Assembly: GCA_903813345.2 (NCBI GenBank)
Contig: CAIIXF020000006.1
Location: 12,838,348-12,902,347, forward strand
DNA from: Owenia fusiformis
Taxonomy: Eukaryota > Annelida > Polychaeta > Sabellida > Oweniidae
Direction of reading: 5' to 3'
Length of the DNA stretch: 64,000 nt
The notes below the pieces were generated by a model. It did no database searches. It saw only the letters and a list, made by a program, of their open reading frames with translations, and had not been told where the DNA came from. Within the stretch, counting starts at the first letter, position 1, and every line of letters starts with the position of its first letter. Both the position numbers and the translations under genes were made by a program. Of this stretch, positions 9,421 to 43,258 are shown piece after piece.

Positions 9421-9439
9421 TCAAAATGATGTGATATTC

Positions 9440-15939: not shown

Positions 15940-17700
15940 CATGTTCTAGCCTGTGTACACCTATCTTTGTTGAGTCTCAGCGAGTTTTCAGTTTTGTGAA
16001 ATGGTTCTAGCTAAGCCAGTGTTCAACTACCTTTGTTGAGACTCAGCGAGTTTTCAGTTTTGTGAAATGGTTCTAGCCAGTGTTCAACTTCATTTGTTAA
16101 GCCTCAGCGAGTTTTCAGTTTTGTGAAATGGTTCTAGCTAAGCCAGTGTTCAACTACCTTTGTTGAGCATTGGGGAGTTTTCAGTTTTGTGAAATGGTTC
16201 TAGCCAGTGTTCAACTACCTTTGTGGAGCATTGGCGAGTTTTCAGTTCTGTGAAATGGTTCGAGCTTTTGTACACCTACCTTTGTTGAAGAGTCTTTAGT
16301 TTTGTAAAACAGTTCTAGCCTGTGTGCACATACCTTTTGAAGCCTTTGGGAGTCTTTAGTTCTAACCTGTGTACACCTACCTTGAGGAGTCTTTAGTTTT
16401 GTGACACAGTTCTACCCTGTGTACATCTACCTTGAAAAGTCTTTAGTTTTGTGAAACAGTTTAAATGTGCACCTGCCTTGTGTGAAGCCTTGAAGATTCT
16501 TTAGTTTTGTAAAACAGTTCTAGCCTGTGTGCACATACCTTTTGAAGCCTTTGGGAGTCTTTAGTTCTAACCTGTGTACACCTACCTTGAGGAGCCTTTA
16601 GTTTTGTGACACAGTTCTACCCTGTGTACATCTACCTTGAAAAGTCTTTAGTTTTGTGAAACAGTTTAAATGTGCACCTGCCTTGTGTGGAGCCTTGAAG
16701 ATTCTTTAGTTTTGTAAAACAGTTCTAGCCTGTGTGCACATACCTTTTGAAGCCTTTGGGAGTCTTTAGTTCTCACCTGTGTACACCTACCTTGAGGAGT
16801 CTTTAGTTTTGTGAAACAGTTTAAATGTGCACCTGCCTTGTGTGGAGCCTTGAAGATTCTTTAGTTTTGTAAAACAGTTCTAGCCTGTGTGCACATACCT
16901 TTTGAAGCCTTTGGGAGTCTTTAGTTCTATCCTGTGTACACCTACCTCGTGTGTGGAGCCTTTAGTTTTGTAAAAACAGCTCTAACCTGTTTTTGTACTT
17001 ACTTCTATGAAGCTTTAGATCCTTGGTTTGTAGCCTATAAGAATTAGGATTTACTTAAGGAGTTTTCAGTTTTACTAGACAGTTCTAATCTCTGTGAACT
17101 TTTACTTTCTATTTTAAAGTCTTGTAGAGTCTTTAGTTTTGTGACCCGGTTTTAGCCTAAGTTAACTTGTACGGAGCGTGTGGAGCCCTGGCGAGTCTTC
17201 AGTTCTTCCAAACATTTATTGCATGTGTGAACTTCTACTAATATCTTTGTCGACCCTTAGAAAATTGAATTATGTGAAAGAGACTAGCCTGTTCTTAATT
17301 TATAGAGTCTAGTTGCAGGCCCGTAGCCAGGGGGGGTTCGCAGGGTTCGGGCGAACCCCCCCCCCTGGCCAAAAATTCTTTCAAAATCATGCAGTTTTTC
17401 ACCATTTTGAGCACTTCTCAAGTGATTTTGACCATATTTGGGCCTAAATTGTCAAATGTGAACCCCCCCCCTGGAAATTTTTGAAAACTGAACCCCCCCT
17501 TGGCAAATCCTGGCTACGGGCCTGAGTTGTATGACCCAGTTTTAGTCTAACTTAACTTTACGGAGCGTGTGAAGCCCTGACGAGATTTCGGTTCTTTCAA
17601 ACAGTTCTTGCCTTCTACTAATATCTTTGTCGACCTTTAACTTTGTGAAACAAACTGGCCTGTTTGAAATTTTCTTTGGACTTTTAAACTAACCTTAAAT
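15940..17700. repeat. Complex tandem array with 205-bp higher-order unit
   Basis: From about 15940 to 16290 a 60-67-bp monomer repeats (GAGTTTTCAGTTTTGTGAAA with CAGTGTTCAACTACC). From 16290 to about 16960 shorter monomers of about 50 bp (AGTCTTTAGTTTTGTG, CCTGTGTACACCTACCTTG) are ordered into a higher-order unit. The landmark GCACATACCTTTT occurs at 16326, 16531, 16736 and 16891, so two full 205-bp units are followed by one of 155 bp that lost one monomer. Diverged monomers continue to about 17700. A roughly 145-bp block (GGAGCGTGTG to TCTTTGTCGACC) is present on both sides of the MITE at 17316-17524. No coding potential. Confidence 0.85.
17316..17524. mobile_element. 209-bp MITE with AGTTG target duplication
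   Basis: CAGGCCCGTAGCCAGG (17316-17331) and CCTGGCTACGGGCCTG (17509-17524) are perfect 16-bp terminal inverted repeats. AGTTG flanks both ends (17311-17315 and 17525-17529). Removing the element and one AGTTG restores a monomer of the surrounding array. The interior has two C-runs (GAACCCCCCC type) and no ORF. This terminal sequence resembles a MITE family common in marine invertebrates, recalled and not searched. Confidence 0.9.
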
Positions 17701-19770: not shown

Positions 19771-19873
19771 ATTGATTTTACATCATTATACAACCCCTAA
19801 CCTGATACATCTCCAAGCGATCATTCCTCATTTTCACCAAAATCAATAATCCAATAAATGTGTTTAATACTTA

Positions 19874-22800
19874 TAGACAGGTTCCAATTTCAGAATATCT
19901 CAAGGGATAGGGTTTTTGAGGCATTTTTTAGAAAAAGCAACAGACCTATTTTTTCTGGATCAGTTTTTCATGCTGATAAAGATATTAAAAGATGACAGCT
20001 CAACGGGGTGGTCACGACACTGAATTTTAGCGTTTTTACCCCCCTGTGAAATTATTTTAGGGGGTACTATAATATTAGTTCATAACTCAAAGGATATATA
20101 AACCATTGTTCTAAGTTCTACAGCATACATTGTTAGTACAGAGATGAATACTACCCTAAAGTTATAGGTTGATATCTTTGTTGGTTTCGGAAAAATACAA
20201 TTAATTAGAAAAAAATATGCAATTTTTGTCATTTTTTCTTGCTTATTTTATATTTGTAGCTTCAAGCAAAATATGATAACTTAAACAGCTCAAATTAGTA
20301 TTCTAAAATCATTCCCAAGGTATGTGTGATATTGTAATACATCTATTATAGTGATGAAGTACTATTTTGTAATTTTAATATGACTTTATAGTGCCCTACC
20401 CCTGGTAAATAGAAGAAAGTTGGTGTGGTTTTCTTCTGGTTTTAACATTTTATTGTCTTCTTAGTTGAAGATACAATCAATTCTGTCAGTTAACCATGAG
20501 TAGCTTTACAATGGTTAACTATTCCCATGAATAGAGGGTTGGGACCTCAAAAATACCAGAACTGTTAAGTGGCATCCTTGGGCAACCCTCTTCAGAGCAT
20601 TTTCCTTATATAATCCGATAAAATCTGCAGGGGACACTATAATAAACCTATATATCTAAGATACTAATGAAGATACTGAATTCAAATTTTCAGGATTTAG
20701 TCCTGGTATGATAGGTAATCTGTATGACAAAAATGACAAAAAGAAAAAACTCTGTTGCCATAGTAACAAGAATACAACACTATTTGTTTCCTAAGAAATG
20801 TGTTTTAAGGGGTTTTGTCATTCTCTTCATATTTTTAATTCTAAATATGTCTACAATGTGGGATGATTAAAATTATGGTAAAGTAATCTTTTCTATTGTT
20901 CTCTAAAACAGAAGTTGCTATGGCGACACATAGATCATAGAAAAAATCCTGGGATGATCGCCCTATTTGTCAGGAAATTAAAATGGAAACTGAAAAATGA
21001 GTTTCTTCCTACTGAATAGCAATTTGGTAGACCAAGGCTGACACGCACAGGAGAAAACATCTATCAGTTCTATGTCATTTTGTTGTTATTTTTTTATTTA
21101 TCGTGCTCTGGGACTTATAACACCTAATGCCGAATCCTTTCCAACTGCAAATGAAGCCAAGATTTTAATAATGAACATTCATATATCTCAACAAATATGG
21201 CATACGATTTGGACAATGATGATGAAACTCTGAGGGAAAATTAGACGAAACATTAATGTGAGTGGTCCAAAAATAACACTTACATGTTTTGAAAAAGTTA
21301 TGCTCTCGGGTGAATCAGTGCTCATTTAAGGATAGTCTGAATCAGGTGAATTTTTTAACCTAATTGTACCCCTCCCCAAAAACCCCCAAATTTTGACAAT
21401 TGTCGAAAAGTGGCAAACAACAATTAAACAAACATCATTAAAATTAAATATGGCTATTTCGCTTCTATGTCATAAAGATATGGTACGATCTCAGGTCAAT
21501 CAATAAATTTCACAAGTGACACTATCTTATGAAGAAAATATTATCGTATTTGAAGACATGTCAAAAATTTGGTGGAAATGATTTTGTCAATCCTGATTTG
21601 ACCTGGAAAGGTTCAGGTAAGTTATCACAAACAATTTCAGACAGTTATATCTTTGATTATGACTATTTTCTGACCATGAAGTCAGGGTATACAGGGATAA
21701 TAAAGTCAATCAGACTCGGAGATATTTCACTAGCAATCAACCCATCAATATATTTTTTCAAAGTTGTTGACCTCATTTTCACCAAAAATGCTATCATTTT
21801 ATTAATGTTTAATGCATTACTTTTCTTTATTTTAATGTATCAAATAGCTCTTGAAAAGAAAACTGAATTCCCCTAAGATTAGTGTTCCCCATGTTATTTC
21901 CCCTTTGAAATAATCCATTGGTTTCAGTTCATTTTGGTCATCCAAATTCAGTGTCTTTAAAGTCCCAGGAGCAATCCACTTTTCCTCTTAGGAAATAGAA
22001 CATGTCTCAAAGCATATTCTAATTATGCATTCAACAATATAATTAAAGGTTGCATCTTTGGTGAAAATTAGGTCACCATTTTTAGTAAAAAGTATGTTGA
22101 TTGGGCCATTCCCTTTAATATCACTTAGGTCTGATTAATCATTATATTTACTTTTCTTGAAGATAATGAATAGATCTAAAGGATATACCCATGTTCATGG
22201 TCAGAAAATATTCATAATTCAAGTTAGAATTGTCTGAAGTTGTTTGCGATAACCTACATGCTCCTTTATAACATTATTATGTAAATACAGTAGAACCTGT
22301 GTAAGTGGAACACTCCATTCTGCCACAAAGCGTTCCACTTAGAAGGTGTTCCACTTACGGAGGTTTTGGGTTCGCAGGGAACATACAAGATCAAATATAG
22401 GATTTATATGTATCATTGGAAATATGATTCTCCCTTCATTACAGGGCAGGTATATACCATTAATAATCCATTTATTTTACTCAAAAAGGTATCTGACATT
22501 CTTAATCCTCCTCATTCTGCCAAAAATGTTTTCTGACATTCTTAATCCTCCTAATTGTGCCAGTCTCAGGTACAAGGATTAGGCAATTAAGTTTTAATGA
22601 ATTGTTCCTACTGCTAATAATTCAATTGTTTTTAAATGACATTTTTAATCTTACTTATTAAGTTTGAAACAAACAGCAAGGGATATTAATTAGTGGTAGC
22701 ATCACGTGTCCAGTTCTACAGGAGGTTAATCCAATTTTCTGAATGAAAATCTTATGAAATCCTAATTTGCTGATTATCAAATTAATTGTTGGTTGCATCA

Positions 22801-23960
22801 CATGTTGACCTCTACAGGAGGTTAATCCATTAAAATCCTAATTTGCCAATTATCACAGTATTACCTGTTTTCATACCCAGATATCATTGAGGGAGATTAA
22901 TTCTGTTTACATATATCAATATTGAAATCTATGGAAATTGACTGTTCCACTTAGCAGGTTAATTTTTCAATATGGGGTGTTCACTGTTCAAGTTTGGAGG
23001 TGTTCCAGGTTCAATTAACATTAAGTCAATGGGTTTTTAAAACGGGACTTTGAAAAGGCGTTCCACTTGGGAGGTGTTCCACTTACAGAGGTGTTCCACT
23101 TAGCAGGTTCTACTGTACATTACTTGTGCATGATGACCACCATAGTCTAGTTGCTCAAATGAGATCAATTGATGATTATAATGTTTAGACTTTATGTCAA
23201 TGTCCAGACTGTATGCCAACCTCTCTAGTATGTGATTACACTAGATTTCATTATGATACATGTACTTAATTGAAAACTTACATATAAAATATCTTAAGTC
23301 CTATATTCTAGTAATAAATGAATTAGAATGTCACCTAACATTTGATGATGGTATGAATTTATTGATTTGGTGTCTATCAATACATGTTTCTAACTTAATG
23401 CTGCAAAATGATAAAATTCACCACATTCACTTTCTTCAATTTTCCAGGGGTAGGGCACTATAAAGTCATATTAAAATTACAAAATAGTACTTCATAACTA
23501 AAATAGATGTATTACAATACCACACATAGCTTGGAAATGTTTTTAAAATACTACTTTGAGCTGTTAAAGCTCTCATATTGTGCTTGAAGCTACAAATATA
23601 AAATTGGCAAGACAAAAATTGCGTATCTTTTTCCTGTTTTTTATATTTTTCTGAGACCAATAAGGGTATCAACCCATAACTTTAGGATAGTATTCATATT
23701 TGTACTAGCAATGTATGGTGTACAACTCAGAACAATAGCTCACATATCCTTTGAGTTATGAACTAGTTTCATAGTACCCCCTAGAATATTTTCCTAGGGG
23801 GGTAAAAATGCCAAAATTTAGTGTCGTGACCACCCCGTTGAGCTGTCATCTTTTAATATCTTTATCAGCATGAAAAACTGATCTAGTAAAAATAGGTCTG
23901 TTGCTTTTTCTAAAAAATGCCTCAAAAACTTGAATTATTTGAATTGGAACCTGTCTATTA
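19874..23960. mobile_element. 4.1-kb element with about 540-bp inverted repeats
   Basis: The left arm (about 19874-20445) and right arm (about 23410-23960) are reverse complements. Landmarks are ACAGGTTCCAATT / AATTGGAACCTGT, GGCATTTTTTAGAAAAAGCA, CAGCTCAACGGGGTGGTCAC, TGAAGCTACAAATATAAAAT-like sequence and GTGCCCTACCCCTGG. The interior has only a 115-codon open frame (21529-21876) without recognisable motifs and a younger TIR element at 22288-23115. The long arms and lack of a transposase suggest a non-autonomous element. Target duplications were not found. Confidence 0.8.
22288..23115. mobile_element. Pogo-like TIR element with TA duplication
   Basis: CAGTAGAACCTG at 22288 and CAGGTTCTACTG ending at 23115 are perfect 12-bp terminal inverted repeats, each bordered by TA (22286-22287 and 23116-23117). 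Subterminal GTTCCACTTA words occur several times near both ends, in the same and the inverse sense (for example about 22328-22360 and 23060-23104). Inside, a segment with CTACAGGAGGTTAATCCA is duplicated about 100 bp apart (about 22715 and 22812). No transposase remains. TA target and TIR style fit pogo/Tc1-mariner MITEs. Confidence 0.85.
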
Positions 23961-23989
23961 GCATGCATTTCAATAAGATGGTACAGTGA

Positions 23990-24408
23990 TTTAGCCTTTG
24001 TAATGATAATCTAGAATGCCCTGGTTGTGCTTTAAACATATGGCTCCCAATAGACCTCTCTGATCCCTCTGTATGATTGGTTGTGCTTTAATACCCCGAT
24101 TGGTTCATTAGATAGCCTAAGCAATTACCTGGTATGCCTTTAATACCCCAAACTGGTTCCTCGGTAGCCTTTATAATGATGACCTAGAATGCCCTGATTG
24201 TGCTTTAAACATACGGTTCCTAATAGACAACTGTGATTCCTCTGTACGTTTGGTTGTGCTTTAATAACTCCAATTGGTTCATGAAATAGCCTCAGCAATT
24301 ACCTAGTATGCTTTGGGTGTGGTTTAATACCCAAAATTGATTCCTTGATAGCCTTTGTAATGATAATCTAGAATGCCCTGGTTGTGCTTTAAACATATGG
24401 TTCCTAAT
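23990..24408. repeat. About 180-bp tandem array, split by the LINE
   Basis: GCCTTTGTAATGAT (or a variant) recurs at 23994, about 24167 and 24351. Shared words are CTAGAATGCCCTG, GGTTGTGCTTTAA and CCTAATAGAC. The array resumes after the LINE at 30301 (CCTAATAGACCTCTGTGATT) to about 30390. Intact monomers give the unoccupied insertion site, which fixes the LINE boundaries. Confidence 0.85.
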
Positions 24409-25211
24409 GTATGTATGTATGTATATATTTATTGCCCTTTATATAAAGGAGATACATGTATACAAATTATGTAAATGTTAAATTAAAAATAATCACTATT
24501 TACAAACAAACAATATTGCTGTTTTTGACTGACGACGACGCCTAGCTACCGCGTAGACGCACGCCGCCAACCAAAATTGGCCTAGCACCTAATTGTAACG
24601 CAATTATAAAAAAAAAATGACTATATTTTACAAACATTCATTGTTTTGTTGTTGTTTTTTGTACTGACGACGCCTAGCTACCGCGTAGACGCACGCCGTA
24701 GGCCTAGATAGACCTGTTACCTAACACTCTTGGGATTAATAAATAATGACATTATGGATCTGCATTTTCTATAAAGATAAAAAGGAAGACATAGCGTATC
24801 ATCATACCTTCCCCAAAGTCAGTACTGTATGAAAGTATGAGATGCTTTCAATATCTTGTAAACTAGTAAAAGGAATATACAATTTTTGTAAATTGAAGAG
24901 AGGTGGTGTTGCCCTATGGTGCAATTCTAAATTAGTGTGTATAGTAAGTGTACATAAATATAAATACAAATATGCGAGTAATACTAAAATGTATTTAGCT
25001 GCTTAAGAGATATAATCGTTTGTTGCAAATACGTCAGGCTGCCGCGTTGACGTTGCAACTACCAATCAAGAAAAAACAAACATAAAGCTTTGCTTATTAT
25101 TGTACCTTCCCCAAGGTCGGTACACTCAGAATAAATACATATTGCATATTACCCCCTGGTCGGCCCATGTTCCTCCCTTGAGGGCCACCCTGTCCCGCTG
25201 ATAAAGTTACA
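24409..25211 (-). other. LINE 3' UTR with internal duplicated unit
   Basis: Within the 3' UTR a block with GACGCCTAGCTACCGCGTAG occurs twice (about 24530-24570 and 24665-24705), about 135 bp apart. The inner words CTAC-CGCG-TAG can form a small hairpin. The related truncated copy at 42740-43258 has three such units, so the repeat number varies between copies. A TTTATTGCCCTTTATATAAA stretch marks the 3' terminus before the TGTA-type microsatellite. Confidence 0.8.
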
Positions 25212-28200
25212 TTAAGTTTGTAAGCTTGTCAAGTACCGTTGACGACACAAATATTGTTGCATAACTATATATGCCATATCTTTTAAAAATACAAGTAGTT
25301 GTTCGTTTGTAAAGTGCAACTCTTCAATTCCTATGCCAAGAATGTTTTTAGTGTTCATTTGGATACCCCATTCGCAGCAATGATTACTAAGTTGTTCTCT
25401 ATAAATAATATATATATTTGCTGGGCATTTAAGTAAGAAATGATCTACGTCTTCTTTTTCATAAGTGCTGCACATTGAGCATATAACTGATTTATCTTCG
25501 GAACCTCTATATTTTGATCTAAGCGCATGTTCATCTGCAAGCAGTTTCACCATTATTTTACAACTACTTAAAGCAAAAGGGAACATTCTTGCAACTCTCC
25601 ACCATATAATTGGCCTCAGAATTTCAAAGTTACCCATTCTAAAATAGTTTAGGCCCTTGTACATTAGCGATTGGAAAAATGTCCTTTGCATCTGAACGGC
25701 TGCGATTTGTCTATACACAATATTCTTCCACCTATTTTTGGGGATGAACATTTTACAGTCTACCATATTTAGAACATGGTTATGTAAATCGTACCTTTTT
25801 GATGTCAGTAACATGCATTTTATTGGAGAGAAGGTATTACATTCATTGTTAACATGCAGCATTTTTACAAATCTCATAGTGAAAAGACATTTATATATAT
25901 TTGCGCTTGGGAGTTGCAATAAACTCCAGAGAAACATCATTCTTAAAAAGTCAATATAAAATTCAACGTCCATTAGGCCCAGGGGCAAATTTGAAATGGG
26001 AATACTAGCTGAGTGAGGCAGAGATTGAATTCTCCGTCCTATTTCTCGTTGTGTCTTTTCTAGAACAACTATATCATTCTGTTGATAGTTGATAATATGG
26101 GCACCGTATGTCATTGTAGGTATGGAGTACGTTTTGTATATTTGACATGCAGATGTTGGGATTAGGCCTCCGCAGCCACTACCTATACCGAGCAGAGCAT
26201 TGTACTGCGATTTGCCCTTCTTACATTTATCCTGTACATAATCAGAAATATCATTATTTGTTGAAATTGGGATTCCGACATGCTTCACATAGTCAGATTT
26301 TGCAATTGATTTACCTCCGATATTAAGTTTCTGAGTTGCACCTAGCTCGATTTTACTATTAAAAACGAGAAACGAACACTTATCGGGATGAACTTCATAT
26401 CTCCACTGATTACTATGAGCATGAAGTAGATCAAGTAGCACTTGCATGTTTTCAAAGGAATTCGACAAGATGCACATGTCATCGGCATATGAAGGACTAA
26501 CGCAACTTAACGAACCTATGGTTGATCCCTTGTTTAGCTTAATCATGGAGTCAATTATATCTGCCATATAAAGTTGGTAAAATAGCATGGACAGGACACC
26601 GCCTTGATGGACACCCTGTAATATTGGAAATAAGTCAGAGCATTTTCCGCCTACTAAAACCGAGCAACTATACCGCTTATATAGCATATACAAAATTTTC
26701 CATATCTTACCGCCAATACCACAGTTGTGAAGTTTAAAAAGAAGGCCATCTATCCATACAGAATCGAAAGCTTTTCGGATATCTGTTACTGTTAAAACTA
26801 CCATTTTACCTTGTTCTACATTTTCAGAAATAGTTTCTTGTACAAGTAATGATGTATGGATTGATGAACATTTCTCGACAGCTGCCCCTTGTAATTTAGG
26901 GATAGCATTTAGTACGGGTGCTTTTACATGAGTTAAAATAATGTTGTCAAATAATTTACGAAGCATTGTCATGAGCGTAATACCTCTTGAGTTGTCTTTT
27001 ACAAGTGGATCTTTGCCGTTTTTAACAAGAGGGATCATTGTGCCGATACAGAAGTTACATGGAATGTAGACTGACTGAAGTATAATATTGTAGATGATTG
27101 AAATTGTTTGGACCATGGAATCCCCGCCATATTTTAGATGTTCTGCGCTGATCTGATCATAACCACATGCACGCTTTGAATGGAGAGCTTTTATTGCACT
27201 ATGAACCATGTCAGGAGTAATTTTAAAAATAGTGCTATCATTCGATATACTGTTAAAAATTGTTTGGACCTTGTTTTCAATTTCGTATTTAAAATGACTA
27301 TCAAACGTAAGTTTGTTTAAAGGGGTTGCTAGTTTTTCGAAATGGCACTTCCACTGTTCTCTGATTTCATTAGCATCTGTAATTAAATGGCCGTCGTCGG
27401 CAAGTACTGGATTAACAGATTTCTTTGATGATCTTCTATGTTTATTGACCAGATACCAGTAAAAGCGTTGATCTGATTGTTCTGATGTATACAATTTTTC
27501 TAATTCCTCTCTTTCATACTCAAGCTGTGCAGCTTGATAGGTTTTTGAAAATATTTTCTTTGACTCTTTATATTGTTTTCTAACATCATTTGAAGGGTCA
27601 CGTGATCTACCCTGAGACACCCATTTATGCCACTTTGCCTTTTTATCTTTAGCTAATGACGTCAAAGTGGAGTTCCAAAAGGGCTTAACATATTTCAGGG
27701 ATTTCCTCTTTGGTATATGAGCATTTGATGATAAAATTAAACTCTCTACTATTCTATTGATGAAATGATCGATTTCTGCTGCGTTTAGTGTCCGACTGGA
27801 CAAGATAGAACGCAGTTCAAGTAAAATATCGTTGCATTTCAATGTAACCGAATTAGTGTACGAGTCCTTTATTTCATTACAGTTGAGTTTGTTCCAAGCA
27901 AATCCTTTTGGGGCTTCAATATCTGGGCAACGTTCTATTTGAGCATTTAAATTTAATATAGTTTGAATTGGAAGATGATCTGATGTATTGTCAGGCTCAT
28001 CTTCCAGGACTGTACACGATAAAACACATTCACGTAAAGTGTAAGACAAAATGACATGATCAATATAGCTAACATGGAGAGCATTGTTTCGAGTCATTTC
28101 AAATGTATGTCTTGGACCACATGCTAAGTCTGTCATATCAATTGCAGTCAAAAGATTTCGTTGCATAAAATCATACAATTTGATACCATTAGATGAGGGA

Positions 28201-28799
28201 TTACCATGACCCCTACAACCCGTAAGCGTGCCCAAATTACTGTTTACGTCGCCAAGAATTATAACACTGCCATCCATGCTAGCCTTTTGCACAAAGTGTT
28301 CGAGTGAGAATAAAACATCGTCGTACATGTCAATTTCACAATTTTGTTGAGGTAAGTAAACAGAAAATATATAAATAGGCGCAGTTTGCACTATTGATAC
28401 CTTTAGACAAACGATCCTGTCTGTTGACATATTTTTAACAGGAATAACATAATTGCTCAACGAATCACGCCAGAAAATAGCAACACCACCATTTCCCCAT
28501 ATTTTACCACAGTTAAAATCGTTTAGATTCTTGCTACTTGTGCTGTAACACCGAAAGTCCGAGTGCACGGAGTCAAGCTTGAATCTGTTACAGGGATAGA
28601 GTTTGTGCTCTGAGAGAGCCAAGATATCGCATTGTGACAATAAATGTTTAATATATAGAGTAGATACATTGAAACCTCGGCAATTCCATTGTGCTAGTCT
28701 TAACTCACTATTACCTTGATTGTTAAAAACTATGGTCTGTTTATTGAATAAAGCAAAAAATAAAATGAGAAACAGCAAGTGTTTTAGATTTTCACACAT
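25212..28799 (-). CDS. LINE ORF2: endonuclease-reverse transcriptase
   Basis: This is the polyprotein that nicks the target and copies the element RNA. The open frame extends upstream to 28946 (1244 codons), but I place the start at the ATG at 28799 because it follows the ORF1 stop by one base. In 1244-codon numbering, the AP-endonuclease domain spans about 83-330: N88 in QWNCRG, E113 in SEHKL, D233/N235 in GDVN, D296/H297 in YIDH, and D323/H324 in TSDHLP. The RT domain spans about 630-900: TVTDIRKAFDSVW with catalytic D722, LQGVHQGGVLSMLF, and SYADD with D822/D823. A C-terminal zinc-finger-like motif uses C1156, C1159, H1169 and C1174. A short hydrophobic run (LLFLILFFALF) just after the start is unusual. 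There are no stops or frameshifts. The clade is undetermined. Confidence 0.95.
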   Translation of the reverse strand: MCENLKHLLFLILFFALFNKQTIVFNNQGNSELRLAQWNCRGFNVSTLYIKHLLSQCDILALSEHKLYPCNRFKLDSVHSDFRCYSTSSKNLNDFNCGKIWGNGGVAIFWRDSLSNYVIPVKNMSTDRIVCLKVSIVQTAPIYIFSVYLPQQNCEIDMYDDVLFSLEHFVQKASMDGSVIILGDVNSNLGTLTGCRGHGNPSSNGIKLYDFMQRNLLTAIDMTDLACGPRHTFEMTRNNALHVSYIDHVILSYTLRECVLSCTVLEDEPDNTSDHLPIQTILNLNAQIERCPDIEAPKGFAWNKLNCNEIKDSYTNSVTLKCNDILLELRSILSSRTLNAAEIDHFINRIVESLILSSNAHIPKRKSLKYVKPFWNSTLTSLAKDKKAKWHKWVSQGRSRDPSNDVRKQYKESKKIFSKTYQAAQLEYEREELEKLYTSEQSDQRFYWYLVNKHRRSSKKSVNPVLADDGHLITDANEIREQWKCHFEKLATPLNKLTFDSHFKYEIENKVQTIFNSISNDSTIFKITPDMVHSAIKALHSKRACGYDQISAEHLKYGGDSMVQTISIIYNIILQSVYIPCNFCIGTMIPLVKNGKDPLVKDNSRGITLMTMLRKLFDNIILTHVKAPVLNAIPKLQGAAVEKCSSIHTSLLVQETISENVEQGKMVVLTVTDIRKAFDSVWIDGLLFKLHNCGIGGKIWKILYMLYKRYSCSVLVGGKCSDLFPILQGVHQGGVLSMLFYQLYMADIIDSMIKLNKGSTIGSLSCVSPSYADDMCILSNSFENMQVLLDLLHAHSNQWRYEVHPDKCSFLVFNSKIELGATQKLNIGGKSIAKSDYVKHVGIPISTNNDISDYVQDKCKKGKSQYNALLGIGSGCGGLIPTSACQIYKTYSIPTMTYGAHIINYQQNDIVVLEKTQREIGRRIQSLPHSASIPISNLPLGLMDVEFYIDFLRMMFLWSLLQLPSANIYKCLFTMRFVKMLHVNNECNTFSPIKCMLLTSKRYDLHNHVLNMVDCKMFIPKNRWKNIVYRQIAAVQMQRTFFQSLMYKGLNYFRMGNFEILRPIIWWRVARMFPFALSSCKIMVKLLADEHALRSKYRGSEDKSVICSMCSTYEKEDVDHFLLKCPANIYIIYREQLSNHCCEWGIQMNTKNILGIGIEELHFTNEQLLVFLKDMAYIVMQQYLCRQRYLTSLQT

Positions 28800-28800
28800 A

Positions 28801-30264
28801 TTAAACAGCCTGTTGTCGATCAGTTTCGTCAAACGCGAAGCAGTCTGATGCATAGTCATCATCAGTTTTGTATGGATCGTATTGTGCATGATAGCCACGC
28901 GCATTAGAATAGGTGTGCCCTGTGAAGACAGGAATTGCATTAGCACGTTGGTAAGTAGAATTTTTATTATTATATCTTGTTCGTTTTTCCCATCTTCGGC
29001 AACCTATAGCGGCGTCTGGCCAAAAATTTTCGACAAGTATTAGGGTAACTTGATCATTGGGAATATGAATTTTGCATCCAACCTTATCATCGCAAACTCG
29101 GTTATGTACGATGTCTGCTTTCATGACACGTATGCCTCTTTGTTTAACATACGCAACTATCGTGGAACGGAGGTCCTCATCGCTAACGTTCCCATCTTTA
29201 CGAATGTTGCTGACGTATACGAAAGCACCTTCGACTTCTTGGATCCCCTTTAAGGTTACCATCTTCCGGCGTTGTTGCGAAGGGTTATATTTACCGTGGG
29301 CTTGAAGTCGAGGCTCTTTAGGTTGAGTTGGGGGAGGGGAATGGCGACCTTTAGGGCCAGCAATGGACCAATCATCTATGTTTTCACTTACTACGCTAGA
29401 ATAAGTGACAGGTTTCGATACATTAGGCACTGGTTGCACTGACCTTGCAGACGGCGGTTGCGAGGCGATTTTCAAAGATGGCGGTATAGCGACAGACTCG
29501 CATGGCTCAGAAGGCTTACGTAGTGAGTTTTGCCTATTAGCGAGGTCACTTATAGGCAAAGTATTGTTATTCAGGTGTGAATCAGTTATTGGCGTGTTAG
29601 TCGAATTATTAGTCCCATTATTGGCCGGCTTAGAATTTAGCGTGGATGAAGTTTGCGTTGGTACAGTTACAGTAGCGCTTTTTTGTGTACGTTTAGAAAA
29701 GTCACACTGACCTGCTTGTAGCAACCTTTGTACCTGTTGCTGGAGCTCTGCAATATCCTTCTGCATCTTTGATATCTGCTCATCCTTCGAGTCTCCCATA
29801 CGTTCCAATTCACTTACCCGCTGGCTAAGACAAACAACCCGTGTGTCGATCTCAATTGAGCGCGTCGACTGATCTGTGATTGTATCAGCTTCAGAAGAAC
29901 CCAGATTCGGTAGAAAACTTGTCGCAGAGATCGTCTGACGTGGGAAAGTGTCCGAAATGTTCGAACCATACATATATAGATCACAAATGTCATTCAAAAA
30001 CGAGACATCCTTGTTCACTCCCTTCCGTGCTTTTAGTGTCAAAATCGGAATTTCGTTTTGCTTTCGTCCAGCAATGGGGCCGAATTTGTCCAAGTAAATG
30101 TTAAATAATCTTTCTTTCGCATATCCAAAATACAGAATCCTCAGTGGTTCGTAATCTTCAGGCGTAGTTACTTCCATGAACTCATTGATAATAGTGTCTC
30201 TGTCTTCTTCTGATAATCTTGACAGAATCCTTTCAATGTGATCGGTATCGGGCGGAGCTGCCAT
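28801..30264 (-). CDS. LINE ORF1 protein (coiled coil plus RRM-like)
   Basis: This 487-residue protein is encoded upstream of ORF2. ORF1 products of such LINEs bind element RNA. Visible regions are an acidic helical N-terminus (1-60), a probable coiled coil at about 143-184 (heptads in LSQRVSELERMGDSK and ISKMQKDIAELQQQVQRLL), a Ser/Thr/Asn/Pro-rich linker (190-330), and a C-terminal fold at about 350-435 (AFVYVSNIRKDGNVSDEDL, then FWPDAAIGCRRW). That C-terminus resembles the RRM-like or C-terminal domain of other invertebrate ORF1 proteins. No CCHC knuckle is seen. The ATG at 30264 lies only 36 nt from the 5' end of the element. The stop TAA (28803-28801) is followed after one base by the ORF2 ATG. 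Confidence 0.9.
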   Translation of the reverse strand: MAAPPDTDHIERILSRLSEEDRDTIINEFMEVTTPEDYEPLRILYFGYAKERLFNIYLDKFGPIAGRKQNEIPILTLKARKGVNKDVSFLNDICDLYMYGSNISDTFPRQTISATSFLPNLGSSEADTITDQSTRSIEIDTRVVCLSQRVSELERMGDSKDEQISKMQKDIAELQQQVQRLLQAGQCDFSKRTQKSATVTVPTQTSSTLNSKPANNGTNNSTNTPITDSHLNNNTLPISDLANRQNSLRKPSEPCESVAIPPSLKIASQPPSARSVQPVPNVSKPVTYSSVVSENIDDWSIAGPKGRHSPPPTQPKEPRLQAHGKYNPSQQRRKMVTLKGIQEVEGAFVYVSNIRKDGNVSDEDLRSTIVAYVKQRGIRVMKADIVHNRVCDDKVGCKIHIPNDQVTLILVENFWPDAAIGCRRWEKRTRYNNKNSTYQRANAIPVFTGHTYSNARGYHAQYDPYKTDDDYASDCFAFDETDRQQAV

Positions 30265-30689
30265 AATACACGTCTGCTCTACTCGAGCTCTCTACTACTA
30301 CCTAATAGACCTCTGTGATTCCTTTGTATGCTTGGTTGTGCTTTAATAACCCCCATTGGTTCATTAAATAGCCTTACTGCAACACAACCAGAATGTACCT
30401 TTCTTTGTATGGAGAAATATTAATGCATGAAAACTTTAACAAAAATGTGTATTATTTCTGACCAGCATCTTTCTGATGCAGCATTATGGAGAAAAATATT
30501 TCTTGGTTGTGTTGAAGTGATGGTTATTATAAAAAACATACATACAGTATCATAGTGACATCAGATTAATCAGTTCTTGCATTACTTACAACACTTTCTA
30601 AAAGATTGATCAGATGGTAATTACAGTTACCATCACTTACAAAACATGCAACAATAAATTTTGTTCAGTTTACATAGTATGTTTTGTAC

Positions 30690-30850
30690 AATACTAGATT
30701 AGATGGAAGTAGAAATAATCTTGATTTGCGTCATTAAAAATTCAAAATTCAGTCAAAGTGATATCGTATTTGAAATCTACATATAAAATTACATTTAGAA
30801 ATGTGTTTTTGCAAGTTTGAAAATTTAATTTTCTTTGAAAATGTGATTTC
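30690..30850. repeat. Dispersed repeat, GTAGAAATAAT...GATTTACGTCATT family
   Basis: The block ACTAGAT...GTAGAAATAATCTTGATT...CGTCATTAAA...CAGTCAAAGTGATATC recurs near 39243-39315, 43860-43940 and 49825-49930. Two of the four copies (here and 49825) extend further, through an AAATCTACATATAAAATTAC stretch. It is an unclassified interspersed element without an ORF. Confidence 0.75.
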
Positions 30851-30934
30851 TACTATTCATGGGGATAAGGTGTGGAACGTAAATTAAAAAGTATAGATGA
30901 TGGTTTCTCTGAAAATAATACGAAACCGACTTAT

Positions 30935-31268
30935 TGTATTGTATTGTATTGCATATTTATTGCCTCGTTTATATGATCTAACGTGAAAAGAAACAATGTC
31001 TAACATCCCCCCCCCTTCAATCGAGAACCAATATCACAATCCAGGACAAGAACACCAGGCACATTTCAGGACATTACTGAAGTCATTACAATACATGTTG
31101 AAGAAAAATTGAAAAAATTGATAGCCAATACTCATAACATCAAAAATAGTTGTAGATACTAGTGCTCATAAAAGATAGAGTATTCAGTCTCAAATGATGT
31201 GGGATAGATAAAATCCAGTCTCGAAGTCCATAGGCAATTCAAAGGGTCAACATCCGTTCGCAAAGAGA
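30935..31268. repeat. Dispersed repeat, copy 2, with (ATTGT)n end
   Basis: The element starts with a TATTGTATTGTATTGTATTG microsatellite and GCATATTTATTGCC, like the 3' tail of a minus-strand retroelement, then matches 8156-8470 over about 290 bp. The tail suggests a truncated LINE or SINE inserted on the minus strand. Confidence 0.7.
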
Positions 31269-31698
31269 TTGTCTGTAGAATTAATTAAATCATAGACATA
31301 AATGAAAGAAAATATTCAATTGGTTTTTGCTTCTTACATAACTTATTGATCATGTTGCTTTATTTATTACTGAAACTAAAAAGTTGATGACATAAGTTCC
31401 TGTACAAGATGGCAGATGAGCAATGCATTTTTTACATTATTATTAATTGATTAATTAATTTTGACCATATCAAAACATGATTTGCTAAAAAATAAAATGG
31501 TAACATCTACCTCTTATGTATATCTCTTTAAAGGTGTGATTTCTATTTCATTTATGGAGGACATTTTAAAAAGTCTGAAAGTGGTTTATATAGCATACAC
31601 CCTCGATGTAATACTGTCAATATCTTCAGAACCTGCTTATGCCTTAACAAACCTGATGGCAAGCAGTAACGATGTTGATTGTAAAATCATAGAGAGAG

Positions 31699-31832
31699 GT
31701 TATGTAATGAGAAGTTTTTGATACAGGGTATATCTGAGGGAAATACAATATATCAACCCGAGGGACCAAGGGTTGATATATTGTATCTACCGAGGGATAT
31801 AACCTGTATCAAAAATCGGGCATTCAATAACT
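31699..31832. repeat. Foldback hairpin, about 60-bp arms
   Basis: TTTTTGATACAGGGTATATC...CAATATATCAACCC pairs with GGGTTGATATATTG...GATATAACCTGTATCAAAAA. The loop is around GAGGGACCAAG at about 31765. The right end continues into CAATAACTTATTTATTCCA, nearly the same flank as the hairpin at 53849-53992. This suggests one MITE family. Confidence 0.8.
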
Positions 31833-34340
31833 TATTTATTCCATACTTAGTAGATTATGAGGATTTATAGCCAAGTCCCCTGGCCCAGTATCTACTCTCT
31901 GAATTTGTGACGTCGTAGATCTGATGAGCGGGTGATATCAGCGGGTGTATATCACTTTAGATATCAGTTATATTCCTGCGTGTTATTTACCTATAACACT
32001 TCTAAGTATCGAATAAATATACTTTATTGACTCTTTGATGTCATCACAATGACATATTAGTCAGTACAGTGTACAATATAAAAAATAACTTAGACTAAAC
32101 TAACTAAAAAAAGATATAAAAAATATACAGCAAAGATGTGAAATATATACAGCATGACAAATGCAAAAATATAACTCATAAAAGTCAAGTTAAAAATACA
32201 GCATGAGAAAATGTAAAAAATATCAGTATGATGTATCATTGACACAATATTCATCCAACTTTTTGAATGAGTGATAGATGAATTTTGCTTAATGTAAAAC
32301 TACATAAGAATATTCTTATTAGACTTAGCTGTTTAAACATCAGACAAGCCTATAATTCAATACATATAATTCCACACTTTAAGACTAAAATCGGAATTCT
32401 CAATTTGCAGTGTCAATATGCAGTGATGCATACAAAAGGTGAAAATACAAACGCTGATATTCACAATTTAATATTCAACGTGACTTTAGAATTCCATATT
32501 ATAGTGTTCCTTTAAGTACACAATGACGCCCACCTACAACAGTTCTATTAATCCGAACAAATGTTAAATTGTTTTTTGTGTATACAACATACCTTGTTTT
32601 ATACAAATATTATGTCATTGTGAATTTCTAATTTCCAATTTTGAGAGACATATATGATTATTCTAGGATTAAGTCTGACTTGTATTTTGTGACATTTTAT
32701 TTCAAGTCGTAAATGGTTTTAATCAATAAAACACCGTGTATGTGATGATACGAATCAAATAAAAAGTTTGTTGTGTGGGGAAGTACATCAATAAACGATA
32801 GGAAAACAAATAGACATGCCATCAAGGTTGTAAAGAAGGGCTAATCCATAGTATTTCTTATGTTTATACTTATTTCTTACTAAGGTCTGAATCCAATTTT
32901 GTGCAATAATTCGGCCTGCGAAATATAAAATTGACCGTATAGAATATACAGGGTGGGCCAAAAATGTTACTCTTAATGTATTTACCATGTATTTATACCA
33001 GCTCCCGGCAAAGTCCCGTGGATTCCCAGGCTATGTTAAGTTTAAAAACTTTAGATATAAAATGCCCATTTTCCATCATTCATTCATTTGGAATAAAACA
33101 TGACTAATCGTATTAAGTCATTCAAGAAAATAAATGAAGAGCATTCTTATTACCACATTAATTGTCACGGACGCCAGTCTATTCATTGTAGACCTTGGCT
33201 CCACAACGAGAATTCAACGTTTCTATTTGTAAAATCCATTTTCATTTAGAAATGACAGATAACATGATTGATTTCCTCTCGGTGAAATGTATTTCAAGAA
33301 GTTTAATAACATATACATACTATAATTACTAATATTGAAAGGCTATTTAACATGTATGTTGTGTGTCAAGCACTCGCTCTTAATGCGTGTCAATTGAAGT
33401 GGTAAGTCATAATATCAAAGCGCATTATCAATTTTCCAGTAAGGTACTGTTATTTTATCATCGAATGAATGAACTCAGTGTGATTAATTGACATCCATTC
33501 ATTAAATGAAATGTTAAGCCAATGTTGTATCACTGTCATTATGTCTCATATAGCTTCGCTATTGTTTTATTAACTACACTGACAAGAAAAGTACTACTTC
33601 TATATTTGGTCATCGAAATATCGAAGCCAATCAACTGCTTTAGTGGGGACCCTTGGAAACTCTTTGAGATTTTGATTTCATCTCAGTTGCTTGACATGTT
33701 AGTTAAGTCTATTACATTGTCATTTAGTTTGAGAATTATTGAAATCGAGGGAATACGTTGTTCTATTATGTTCAACAACGTGTTATTCAAAAGATGTATG
33801 AGAAACCACAAACTTCACCATGCTTTTAAAATATGCGTGTACTGCACGATGTACCCTGCGCGCAGAGTCTATTTATAAAGACGAAGCTCTCTTTTAAGAC
33901 GTGAAGTCGAACGAATGCAAATGGATGCATAGTGTCAAGGAAGCTTCTAAATTGAATATTAGTTCGTCTCACAAGTTATAGTTATATGACGTCGATATTT
34001 GGGGTTTCATGATTTCTACAATACGGTTAGGAGAAACTGTCATATTTTTAAAATGTATCCTAACATGCTGATAAAATGAAAGTATCTTCGTTTTATGAAT
34101 AAATGTCATAACAATTGTAATTAGCTTCGAACAGTTGTCATATTTTGTGAAACTGGGTAAATGGGCCATATCTATTTAAAATGTAATTAATACTCTTCAC
34201 ACCTCATTTTGTTACACTTCGCACAATTGGAGGTATACGAAGTGGTTTGAAGTTATTCGTTTTCGAATCAATTTTAAGCTTATTGCTGTCGTAATGTTAA
34301 ATAAAGATGCATCCTACCATAGGTTTCTCGCCCAGACTCA
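31833..34340. other. No gene seen; retroelement-tail and TIR-like fragments
   Basis: At about 32010-32090, GAATAAATATACTTTATTGA followed by AT-rich sequence looks like a minus-strand LINE 3' end. At 32947, TACAGGGTGGGCCAAAAAT resembles a mariner-type terminus without a visible partner; a similar solo end (ACAAGGTGGGCCAAAAACG) lies at 50516. The 118-codon plus frame at 33522-33878 has no recognisable domain and AT-driven composition. Confidence 0.45.
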
Positions 34341-34528
34341 GTGATGTCCCATTATTATTGCTCATATAATATCTCACATACCATGCATGGATATATCTTA
34401 AGAATAACTTATGGGTTTATTATTGCCGAAATATTGAAACAATCAACAGAACAACCACACACACAATCGATTCCTCAGCTAGCCAGGGGAATCCCCGTTG
34501 AGTCACATAAGCGCCCAGATGCGCCTTG

Positions 34529-34710
34529 AACCAAGCAGCCAATCAGGTTCATGATAAACAAATTCAAAGACCAATCAGATAACAGGAGGATTTTCCCGGT
34601 ATATTTAAACTTCAGATTGAATTGATTTCCGTGAAAATAATTACTTCGGTCAGCACAATCACAAAATTAACGCTGAAACGTGGGGTTTGAGACTTCTTCT
34701 TTGGTAAGTA
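34529..34710 (+). promoter_or_regulatory. Orphan CCAAT/TATA promoter-like segment with splice donor
   Basis: Two CCAATCAG boxes (AGCCAATCAGG near 34538, GACCAATCAGAT near 34569) are followed by GGTATATTTAAAC (near 34598) at a distance typical of class II promoters. A strong GGTAAGTAG donor follows near 34703. No downstream coding exon is visible before the LINE relic at 35010. A CTGAGGAAGAAAGGC and CGAAATGTCGAAATAAAG pair near 34896-34940 resembles the 3' terminal region of some Penelope-like or similar retroelements. The segment may therefore be an element promoter or pseudo-LTR rather than a host gene. Confidence 0.35.
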
Positions 34711-35009
34711 GAAGTAGATGGGTGAATATGTGGTGAACTCAATATGCAAAAAGGTCCAACGGGGTCTTGGTTGAGCTATCCTATGGTATAGAGCCTCTTT
34801 AAGAAGAATTTAGAAGTTTTAGATTGTATTCAAATGAAAGAGATGAAATTAAATTAAATGCACGTCTGCGTAGCATAGTCGATGTAAGGTTTCTCTGAGG
34901 AAGAAAGGCTCATATTATTTCGAAATGTCGAAATAAAGAATTTTACTTGAAATGGGATGTGTTCTGTGGAATAATAGTTGATTTGTAAGAAGATGGGATG
35001 CAGTTATAA

Positions 35010-36622
35010 TAGAATAGAATATTTATTGAGTACATTCACACCCCTGAGTGTCAGGTACAAGAAAGTGTAGTACACAAAAAGAATATATATGATTTAACAC
35101 TAGACTACTATATACTACATATAATATATGCTTAACTGTAAAATGTAAAATATGTGTTACTACAAAATGTTTTTTTGCGCAGCAGGAATTAGTCTTTCTA
35201 AATTAAGTATTGCTTTCTAAAATTCGGAAGGCATCACTAATGTATTTTGCAACCTTGATGCAATCTTGATTTATACAAGTTAAGAGGTATATAAATTGAT
35301 TTGTTTGTGCTTTTGCCGTATCAGATAATTCAGTTTGAAGTAATAATCTTTTATTTTGATATTTTTTACACTTCATCATAAAATGTTCTTCATCATCAAT
35401 AATATTGCAATGGACACACAGTCTTTCTTCAATTGGGGTTTTCTTTGGTTTTGTATATCTCCCTTGCTCAATTTGGAGGTTGTGAGCACTTATTCTCAAA
35501 CGTGTAAAGTTTCTTCCCATATCAAGTCTGTCGATTATATTTAATTCAAACATGACCGTGCTCTATTCGAATTTCTCAACCAATCAGAATGCAGCATAGC
35601 CAATATAGAACGTTCTCTAATTCTCCATAGATGCACGACCATGCTCTATTCAATCTGCAATTTGCAGTTTTGAGTGACGTCACATCTCAGCTGCACATCT
35701 GGGGCTCTGTCCGGGGATAGCATGCGTATTCTTCCTTCATGCCCGTTCCACAGACACGGCTTTTACTAATTTTTATGTTTGAATCGGAATAAATAATGAT
35801 AGGCCATTCAATATGGTGAAATTCAGCACTCGTTGGACAGAATGTTAGTACAAATGCACTCACCTTCGGTTCGTGCTTTGTACAACATTCTGTCCAACTC
35901 GTGCTGAATTTCACCATATTGAATGGCCTATCATTATTTATTCCTTAAATAATGTTCATATTTAAAATCTTTCTTGAGGGTTCTGTAGGTTCGTAGTTTA
36001 TTGCCGTTATCATTTTTCCTAGTGTCAGTGTTTAATTTATTCTTCCAGTACCTTGATTAGAACATTTTTTGTATCTTTAATGTGATGTAAAAAGTTGAGA
36101 ATTTGGCCAAATATACCTATAAATAGTGGATATCTTCCAAGTTCCCCATAAACAGCCATATTAGTGGCCTTTCTACCAACTCCAAGTAGGAATTTGGAAA
36201 AGGATATGTTTAATTTTTCTGAGGGGAATTTGTTTTGGTTTAAGTATGCTTCTTCTAGGTTTGAACTGAATACTTTGTTAAGACTGAAAGGGGTCCATAT
36301 TTCAGCCCCATATAGACAAATTGGTTTTATCATTTGATCAAACAGTTTAAGCCAAAGCTGTGGTTTTATATCACTCTGTTGAAGGCATCTTTTAAGTTTA
36401 AAAATTGCTTTACTAGCTTTTTCATGTAGGTGTGTTTGAGCTGATATAAAGCTGCCTGGTGCTCGAAATATCACACCAATGTACTTGTATTCTTGTACAT
36501 ACTGAACTTGGAGTCTACCATATGAGAAATAGTCAGTGCAGAGATGCCCCTTTTTTGAATTTAATTATCTTGGTGTTATTTATGTTGATATTAAGTTTCC
36601 ACCTGTCACAATATTGTCAATA
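35010..36622 (-). pseudogene. 5'-truncated, interrupted LINE relic
   Basis: The 3' end lies at about 35010, where an AATAAATATTCTATTCTA-type tail is seen on the minus strand. The downstream frame (35203-35553) carries the C-terminal signature NFTRLRISAHNLQIEQGRY with a zinc-finger-like CVHCNIIDDEEHFMMKCKKY. The upstream frame (36037-36474) carries the post-RT region: SDIKPQLWLKLFDQMIKPI, CLYGAEIW, ISFSKFLLGV, NMAVYGELGRYPL. A frameshifted start, QYCDRWKLNIN, lies at about 36600, with EYKYIGVIF downstream. The body between 35555 and about 35960 was replaced by foldback sequence. It is a different LINE family from the 24409-30300 element and is not functional. Confidence 0.85.
35786..35944. repeat. 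Nearly perfect hairpin, about 68-bp arms
   Basis: GGAATAAATAATGATAGGCC (35786 on) pairs with GGCCTATCATTATTTATTCC (ending 35944). Inner words GAAATTCAGCAC and GGACAGAATGTT pair with few mismatches. The loop region is TGCACTCACCTTCGGTTCG. It lies inside the LINE relic. The TTATTTATTCC terminus is shared with the hairpins at 31699 and 53849. Confidence 0.9.
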
Positions 36623-37400
36623 TATATAGTTATATATGATATGATTCGTGTGAAACCAGACCAGGAGTTGGCATAAGGCAGGAACAATCCTCTTTTGATG
36701 TATTTTACAAAAAGCAAGCATTTGGGTTCAATGATTAAAACTTTAAATACAGAATTGATGGGACCCTTTTATTGATCTGAGTTCGAAAGTCCCCCAGATT
36801 GCCAGTCCTATTTTTGTAATTTATATTAATCATGATCAAATTTCTAGACCTTAGTCAATGAGGAATAAAATTACAATTCCAACATAATGGGAAGCCATGA
36901 TGAAAGGAAGTGTACCATGCGAGGCAAGTCTCTGAGTGCTAAAAATATAGTTCACCATAAAGTTCAAATTGAAAACAAAACACAGACTAGAGATACACCA
37001 GGATACAACTGACAATATATTTTTAAACTTAGTATTACTAGTATATGGAAATTGCGAAATTACTTGAATTAATGTTATTTTGCATAATAGAATCCATTGG
37101 AATATATTATATCATTGCAATTATTAACACTTACAATCCCTTTGTTTTAACAACAAGTTACTCTCATTGTAAATGTAAAACTATCAAGGATGTACTAGAT
37201 ATGAAACAAAGTGTCAAGAAATAATATGGGGAAATAAACTTTTCATCATAAAAACAAACCAGTTTTCTTTCCTCATTGAATAGAGAGTGAAGTAATAGAT
37301 TTAAAAGGCTTGATGATGCAAAACTGCCTGCTTAATATTGATTTAATTTATCAGAAACTTGTCAACAAGCAAAATAGGATTTCTGGGTTTCACCCAGTAC
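36623..37400. other. No gene seen
   Basis: AT-rich sequence without recognisable coding or repeat structure. Confidence 0.5.
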
Positions 37401-37419
37401 AAAATGCAGTTAAATCGAT

Positions 37420-38020
37420 AAAAAAATAATATAGACGTACAAACTTCACAATACACAAATATTGAAATATCCCTCAAAGATTTAGATTTAGAGTTGATGA
37501 TAAAACAATAGATGTAAATCATCAGAAATTTTTCTATACGGACGTTTTAAAGAAAGGCGGAAAATGGAATTGTGAAAGATAAATGGTAAAAGCAATTTTG
37601 TTATGTCATAATTATGGTGAACTTACTGATGAAATTAATTGCGAAATCTTTTTTGAGACTAAGACAAAATGTATGTAAGAAACAAAACGTCAAAACTACA
37701 AGATAATTAATAGAATTTTACCAAGCAAATGTGAACTGTTTATATTTGGTTAAACACAGATTCGTACTTGAGATATTTGTGGAAAACCAGATTCAATAAA
37801 ACATCTATTTTTGTTTATGGATTATGGAATATGGAATTTCATTCAAGACAAATCAAAATTAAGAATTACTTATAGAAAATATGTTATAATTGCAGTAGAT
37901 TTTAAATTTTGTCCAAAATTATTTCGGAAATGAAATAACTATAAGAAAAATGTATTTTACCCCAAACTTAAAAAACATTGCAATTCTATGATTATGTACT
38001 TAATGTGACCTAAAAGTGAT
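37420..38020 (+). pseudogene. Decayed LINE C-terminal relic
   Basis: In the plus direction, with stops and frameshifts, the sequence reads KIINRILPSKCELFIFG, then DICGKPDSIKHLFLFMDY and IWNFI. This resembles the zinc-finger-like tail of L1/Tx1-type LINE proteins (typically NRILPTNSFLF, CxFC, HLFWEC, FW). Both the first Cys of the pair and the WEC part are lost. Upstream, LRFRVDDKTIDVN and GGKWNCER fit the same region loosely. Similarity is by eye only. Confidence 0.45.
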
Positions 38021-38194
38021 TGGAACACAATTACGACACCTGGTGTTGATCTATATTTAAAAGTAAAATCATCTAGCTGCAGTAGAAAATAAATAAAACA
38101 GATATTTCCAAACTTATCTTTCCTGTATCATTCAAGATATGAGATCAAAAAAAGATCTATGTTTTTGACGTGAAAGATATTAGACAAAACGATA

Positions 38195-42735: not shown

Positions 42736-42739
42736 TCTA

Positions 42740-43258
42740 AATGTCATTATTTATTAATCTCAAGAGTGTTAGGTAACAGGTCTATCTAGGCCTACGGCGT
42801 GCGTCTACGCGGTAGCTAGGCGTCGTCGTCAGTACAAAAAAGCAACAACAAATTGCAGCCGTTCAGATGCATGTATGTCTTCCTTTTAATTTTATAGAAA
42901 ATGCAGATCCATAATGTCATTTTTTATTAATCTCAAGAGTGTTAGGTAACAGGTCTATCTAGGCCTACGGCGTGCGTCTACGCGGTAGCTAGGCGTCGTC
43001 GTCAGTATAAAAAACAACAACAAAACAATGAATGTTTGTAAAATATAGTCATTTTTTATAATTGCGTTACAATTAGGTGCTAGGCCAATTTTGGTCGGCG
43101 ACGTGCGTCTACGCGGTAGCTAGGCGTCGTCGTCAGTCAAAAACAGCAATATTGTTTGTTTGTAAATAGTGATTATTTTCAATTTAACATTTACATAATT
43201 TGTATACATGTATCTCCTTTATATAAAGGGCAATAAATATATACATACATACACACAC
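42740..43258 (+). mobile_element. 5'-truncated copy of the LINE family
   Basis: Only the 3' UTR is present, on the plus strand. It ends in CAATAAATATATACATACAT, the same tail as the full-length copy. The unit with CTACGCGGTAGCTAGGCGTC occurs three times (near 42794, 42968 and 43097) against two in the full-length element. Spacing is about 173 and 129 bp. Confidence 0.88.

Follow-up and report, generated by a model that had tools for sequence, protein, structure and literature searches.

The subject of this study is a LINE (long interspersed nuclear element), a retrotransposon lacking long terminal repeats (non-LTR), located in the genome of the annelid Owenia fusiformis in a stretch of 64,000 nucleotides of contig CAIIXF020000006.1 (positions 12,838,348 to 12,902,347), which was analysed over its whole length and is called here the window. 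The element, noticed in an original prediction, has exact ends and a 6-bp target-site duplication, carries two uninterrupted open reading frames (ORFs) with every endonuclease and reverse transcriptase motif that was checked, and is accompanied by a second copy of its family in the same window. In our judgement these features make it very probable that this is an intact autonomous LINE of the APE (apurinic/apyrimidinic endonuclease) type, which was inserted recently into a tandem repeat.

Target site and coding sequences

24409..30300, minus strand: LINE (non-LTR retrotransposon), 5,892 nt
24403..24408, strand not given: target-site duplication CCTAAT, copy adjoining the 3' end of the element
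30301..30306, strand not given: target-site duplication CCTAAT, copy adjoining the 5' end of the element
23992..24408: left part of the degenerate tandem array of about 184 bp that was the target; the array resumes at 30301-30374

The 5' end of the element lies at 30300 and its 3' end at 24409. When the element and one CCTAAT were deleted in silico, a 184-bp array of 1.8 copies was recovered across the junction by Tandem Repeats Finder. The array monomer at 24210, CATACGGTTCCTAATAGAC, contains CCTAAT once, and in the monomer at 24037, which includes TCCCAATAGAC, the corresponding site is likewise present once, as CCCAAT. Since the joined flanks restore the array, CCTAAT is a true 6-bp target-site duplication, and the monomers and the joining of the flanks thus bear out what had been claimed from the letters alone. 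Terminal repeats were absent from the comparison of the element with itself by BLAST, which returned only internal repeats of the 3' untranslated region (UTR) and short inverted matches.

28801..30264, minus strand: ORF1, 487 amino acids (aa), ATG preceded by A at -3 and followed by G at +4
29716..29826, minus strand: presumed coiled coil, ORF1 aa 147-183, recognized by eye (Pfam matches there are below the cut-off)
28990..29229, minus strand: possible domain like the RNA recognition motif (RRM), ORF1 aa 346-425, from a low-confidence model
25212..28799, minus strand: ORF2, 1,195 aa, ATG at 28799
27969..28688, minus strand: APE-type endonuclease, N-terminal in ORF2, with WNC, SEH, SVY, GDVN, YID and SDH (Pfam and pattern)
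26298..26999, minus strand: reverse transcriptase with TVTDIRKAFDSV, GVHQGGVLSM (QG block) and YADD (Pfam, PDB and pattern)
25425..25481, minus strand: C-terminal CX2CX9HX4C motif of ORF2 (pattern)

Neither reading frame has an internal stop, as the original prediction had stated. The stop-to-stop frames extend over 496 and 1,263 codons, compared with a mean of 92 and a maximum of 190 codons in 300 mononucleotide shuffles of the element. ORF2 was matched in Pfam by RVT_1 (1.9e-23), Exo_endo_phos (1.3e-9) and Exo_endo_phos_2 (3.8e-9), while RNase H was not among its matches at E up to 1. Every motif of the two enzymes that was checked was found by pattern in ORF2, in line with the prediction that their residues are complete; these motifs have catalytic roles in APE-type LINEs, and the reverse transcriptase possesses its catalytic aspartates (RVT_1; TVTDIRKAFDSV and YADD). 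The best PDB match of ORF2 is human LINE-1 ORF2p (E 1.3e-24, query aa 104-857), followed by R2 proteins; aa 1-246, which contain the larger part of the endonuclease but not its SDH motif, gave no PDB sequence match at E up to 1. In ORF1 no CCHC was found by pattern, no Transposase_22, PHD or esterase was among the Pfam matches, and no PDB sequence match was obtained at E up to 1.

A separate observation concerns the beginning of ORF2p, which reads MCENLKHLLFLILFFALF (28728-28799, minus strand): residues 8-24 form the most hydrophobic 17-residue window of the protein, an odd feature for a LINE enzyme.

30265..30300, minus strand: 5' leader, 36 nt
30269..30275, minus strand: AGACGTG, resembling a downstream promoter element, +26 to +32 (CGTG at +29 to +32)
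28797..28803, minus strand: TAATATG stop-start junction, ORF1 TAA at 28803-28801 and ORF2 ATG at 28799-28797

The pattern RGWCGTG occurs 17 times on both strands of the window, the leader copy included, so that about 0.4% of 36-nt leaders would have one by chance. An element for comparison, both here and at the junction of the two ORFs, is SART1 of Bombyx, a member of the R1 clade. It is named together with jockey, Doc, G, I, F and TRAS1 among the elements bearing a downstream element, which according to the same source stands at about +28 to +32 in elements with a known start site, and as CGTG at +25 to +28 in L1Tc (PMC4748587). The placement of AGACGTG is support, though not proof, for a natural start at base 30300 or close to it. 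SART1 is described as translating its second ORF by coupled termination-reinitiation at an overlapping stop-start site, a process needing structure downstream of the junction (PMC5972666); the junction found here is suggestive of a similar coupling, although it is UAAUAUG with one base between stop and start, in contrast to the overlapping UAAUG of SART1.

Age, relationship and alternative explanations

42740..43256, plus strand: second family copy, without ORFs, with a chimeric 3' UTR

The age of the insertion was approached through a model of neutral decay after insertion, in which 4.4% of the random substitutions in ORF1 and ORF2 create a stop (transitions weighted twofold). Counting stops alone, a divergence of 0.31% brings the chance that both ORFs stay intact down to 0.5, and one of 1.36% brings it down to 0.05; if 0.1 insertions or deletions per substitution are assumed, the same chances are reached at 0.10% and 0.44%. 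Under this neutral model the 5,046 intact coding bases suggest a young insertion.

The second copy differs from element positions 5508-5892 by 8 substitutions in 380 sites (2.1%) and 3 gap runs, and it shares the 3' box and the tail. Its upstream part includes a further 3' UTR unit and a 24-nt insert derived from ORF2 (42848-42871), which matches element positions 4591-4614 at 23 of 24 bases; at one junction ACAAA, recognized by eye, is common to both sources. This structure, seen at one locus, suggests template jumping or a non-autonomous derivative. A search for a target-site duplication of this copy found no exact direct repeat of 7 nt or longer between 42300-42860 and 43241-43290. With a limit of E 1, tblastn detected no relatives of ORF1 or ORF2 elsewhere in the window; in a laxer search ORF1 rows at E 1.2 and worse were among the matches listed. 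The suggestion of the original prediction that the copy is recent, perhaps active, holds as far as sequence alone can carry it, through the exact duplication, the intact ORFs and the copy diverged by 2.1%.

By the features tested the element is an APE-type LINE. Its two ORFs, an ORF2 with APE and reverse transcriptase domains, the absence of RNase H at the Pfam threshold given above and the target-site duplication are features also of the Jockey superfamily (CR1, L2, Jockey and allies). Human LINE-1 is the closest relative of ORF2 by sequence among solved structures, but the Transposase_22-type ORF1 of the L1 clade was not matched here in Pfam at E up to 1 and an ACATAC-type tail replaces poly(A); with ORF1 and tail both unlike those of L1, the element is not of L1 type. 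In the scheme of PMC4120745 its ORF1 would be of type V (unclassified), unless the possible RRM is confirmed. No relatives were found in the viral and genome contig collections, which are not expected to hold animal LINEs; in one scan of genome contigs 9 stretches fitted the pattern and none of the 9 encodes a relative, and tblastn against phages and plasmids, where animal LINEs are likewise not expected, gave no match.

Several results speak against the interpretation as an intact, autonomous and recent LINE. ORF1 has no Pfam domain above the cut-off; the single-sequence model of its C-terminal part (107 aa) has the order strand-helix-strand-strand-strand at a mean predicted local distance difference test score (pLDDT) of 46.8, and 0 of its 859 Foldseek matches reached E 0.001 or less. 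The top match is the ALY RRM (E 0.089), and many ribosomal and metabolic proteins are included in the best 50 of the 859; the RRM-like order is thus a hint only. The single-sequence model of ORF2 was unusable (pLDDT 33.4). The last 112 nt fold no better than their shuffles, of which 60 of 200 are as good (z -0.41). On the 5' side of its ATG the ORF2 frame stays open up to 29003, so that an alternative start or a frameshift is conceivable. The completeness of the 5' end, finally, is likely but is judged from one copy and a 7-nt motif.

The last point leads to the alternative that this copy is open but inactive, either because it was slightly truncated within the leader, with loss of the promoter, or because of a silent missense lesion. 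The leader is just 36 nt long, 5' truncation is frequent in LINE copies (PMC2881922), and the only other copy in the window, which lacks the 5' part, offers no 5' end to compare; on the other hand AGACGTG at +26 to +32 lies near the position that a start-proximal downstream element should occupy with base 1 as the start site, and all motifs checked are present. We consider inactivity rather unlikely, although it deserves to be taken seriously, and the prediction that the element is full-length is likely, though short of proof. Much less probable, and in our view hardly credible, is an old LINE that was domesticated or selectively preserved. Selection alone could keep long ORFs intact, but the exact duplication, the kept tail and 3' UTR and the non-coding copy diverged by 2.1% are more simply explained by recent mobility. 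The observed/expected ratio of CpG, 0.90 in the element versus 0.70 elsewhere in the window, fits a young element, though it is confounded by coding content.

The original prediction raised, in addition, a poorly described clade. The QG block GVHQGGVLSMLFYQLYMADI looks unusual in comparison with the wordings of CR1, L2 and Jockey, which was counted in favour of this idea together with the lack in ORF1 of the domains listed above. Against it, similar wording may occur in predicted proteins of bivalves, cnidarians and brachiopods. A literature search on the wording GGVLSP found nothing. A difference of wording in one reverse transcriptase block is no phylogeny and does not support a poorly described clade. 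ORF1 types vary widely in the CR1 and L2 lineages, for which type V is already entered in Table 1 of PMC4120745, and for this reason the unusual ORF1 is no evidence of a new clade; moreover, many LINE clades are described among molluscs in surveys of bivalves and gastropods (PMC10294476, PMC11203168). We regard an undescribed clade as improbable.

The 3' untranslated region

24409..25211, minus strand: 3' UTR, 803 nt
25103..25122, minus strand: repeated motif TACYGACYTTGGGGAAGGTA, copy a
25019..25071, minus strand: hairpin H1, apical loop ACGCGGCAGCC at 25037-25047 (covariance-model match weak)
24805..24824, minus strand: repeated motif TACYGACYTTGGGGAAGGTA, copy b
24654..24712, minus strand: hairpin H2, apical loop ACGCGGTAGCT at 24676-24686
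24519..24580, minus strand: hairpin H3, apical loop ACGCGGTAGCT at 24544-24554
24426..24436, minus strand: 3' box GGCAATAAATA
24409..24425, minus strand: 3' tail, short repeats of ACATAC type

The repeated hairpins are the most novel part of the element and the one most worth following. As a whole the 803-nt 3' UTR folds better than its shuffles (z -2.8, 0 of 20 as good). A 30-nt stretch is identical in all five GC-rich hairpin units, of which the element has two and the second copy three; single folds of these units gave z from -2.0 to -4.0. A covariance model built on the five units recovered all of them and, in a search of the whole window, matched H1 weakly in addition (11.9 bits, E 1.7); a second weak match is at 42664-42710 (11.0 bits, E 2.9). 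The fold of H1 has z -2.0, with 8 of 200 shuffles as good, and its loop is ACGCGGYAGCY as in the others. This loop pattern was drawn up after inspection of these sequences; it is matched 6 times in 64 kb, against 0.00 expected. When the first 490 nt of the 3' UTR were shuffled 20,000 times, the pattern appeared in 5 of the shuffles, an optimistic figure because the pattern had been fitted to include H1.

The alignment of the units was examined for compensating changes. On four distinct rows 94.2% of the cells pair, versus 25.0-57.7% for slid versions, although this percentage is favoured by the derivation of the structure from five of the six rows. None of the 15 pairs changes on both sides in the five-unit alignment; once H1 is included, double-sided changes appear at 2 pairs, and each of 3 pairs contains a single unpaired row. 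The observed values were reached by 25 of 500 shuffles for the covariation score, 10 of 500 for the percentage paired and 405 of 500 for the number of further pair types. One of the double-sided pairs, at columns 4 and 37, is absent from the predicted fold of H1 itself, which leaves for H1, the most diverged of the hairpins, one compensated pair (U-A to A-U) and one broken pair beside the loop, besides two one-sided changes (G-U to A-U and U-G to U-A). Between H2 and H3 the core is identical at 33 of 33 positions, the 5' flank at 26 of 50 and the 3' flank at 34 of 40 with gaps; shuffled controls aligned with free gaps averaged about 0.70, with maxima of 0.87 and 0.91, so the flanks are not clearly above chance and selection is not claimed from the contrast of core and flank. 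Taken together, the evidence for a conserved RNA structure of the repeated hairpins is suggestive, not strong.

We put forward, as a tentative and on balance doubtful possibility, that the 3' UTR carries a multi-copy RNA recognition module, with an invariant loop ACGCGGYAGCY, variable stems and repeated copies, at which ORF2p, ORF1p or a host export factor would select the LINE RNA; our estimate was reduced because the pair at columns 4 and 37 is missing from the fold of H1. Recognition of the hairpin RNA by the element's own proteins is a proposal. Stringent-type LINEs such as UnaL2, ZfL2-1 and ZfL2-2 resemble the element in their specific 3' end and short terminal repeats, and the terminal stem-loop of ZfL2-1 and ZfL2-2 is described as essential and as bound by the region of ORF2p between endonuclease and reverse transcriptase (PMC4176376). 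In the present element, in contrast, the terminal hairpin is weak and three stronger ones are situated about 110-660 nt upstream of the end, so that the proposed module would differ from the arrangement in known stringent-type LINEs, which have a single stem-loop at the terminus. If the hairpins are indeed a recognition site, they would represent a second way for LINE proteins to choose their own RNA. Nothing evident on repeated hairpins in LINE 3' UTRs was met in the literature, the search being weak, and their absence from print is not claimed. In Rfam there were 0 matches at the gathering threshold in 24000-44000; within 24409-25300 the opposite strand gave one match (E 0.35), which falls far short of its gathering score.

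Even with up to 3 mismatches allowed, the motif TACYGACYTTGGGGAAGGTA has only two copies in the window, both in the 3' UTR. The 3' box GGCAATAAATA occurs four times in the window against 0.09 expected, a number reached by 0 of 100 shuffles; the element and the second copy hold one site each, and the other two lie in other repeats at 15700-15710 and 30954-30964 (both on the minus strand). Because it is present also in two other repeats, a 3' end common to other elements is possible, although the box contains AATAAA; pairs of LINEs and short interspersed nuclear elements (SINEs) with common 3' ends are reported (PMC5135761). As side observations, ATACA repeats follow the box at 30954, which adjoins a repeat found also at 8165-8453 (86%), and upstream of the box at 15700, in minus orientation, there are complex tandem arrays (15943-17087) with periods of 61, 127, 155, 205 and 360 bp.

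Proposed insertion cycle and other features of the window

A candidate part can be read for each step of the cycle, namely promoter, stop-start junction, enzyme, 3' end and target. Transcription by RNA polymerase II would begin from an internal, start-proximal promoter with AGACGTG at +26 as its downstream element. The product would be one bicistronic RNA, on which ORF2 may be reached via termination-reinitiation at UAAUAUG, and ORF1p could coat this RNA through its coiled coil and RRM-like domain. ORF2p would then recognise the 3' end of the RNA and nick the target after GGTTCCTAAT on the plus strand of the window, where the nicked 3' end might act as primer for target-primed reverse transcription starting at the ACATAC tail; cutting of the second strand 6 bases off would give rise to the 6-bp duplication. 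Template jumping by an enzyme of this kind would fit the chimeric second copy. Age and activity can be tested directly on intact LINE copies whose target site is clean.

The remaining features of the window are the following.

19867-20429 and 23420-23964: pair of inverted repeats near the LINE, 86% identical over 563 columns
9329-10193, minus strand: open fragments resembling by eye a Penelope-like reverse transcriptase, unconfirmed (no Pfam match at E up to 0.01)
36040-36564, minus strand: open fragment, by eye like the C-terminal portion of an ORF2 from another LINE (no Pfam match at E up to 0.01)
46038-46915: 54-bp tandem array, 16.3 copies, 81% matches
63072-63926, plus strand: open frame matched weakly by Tudor_2 (3.5e-5, below the cut-off of Pfam), which may be an exon of a gene for a chromatin protein
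51423-53078, minus strand: open frame of 552 codons with ankyrin repeats throughout (Ank_2, 6.6e-86)

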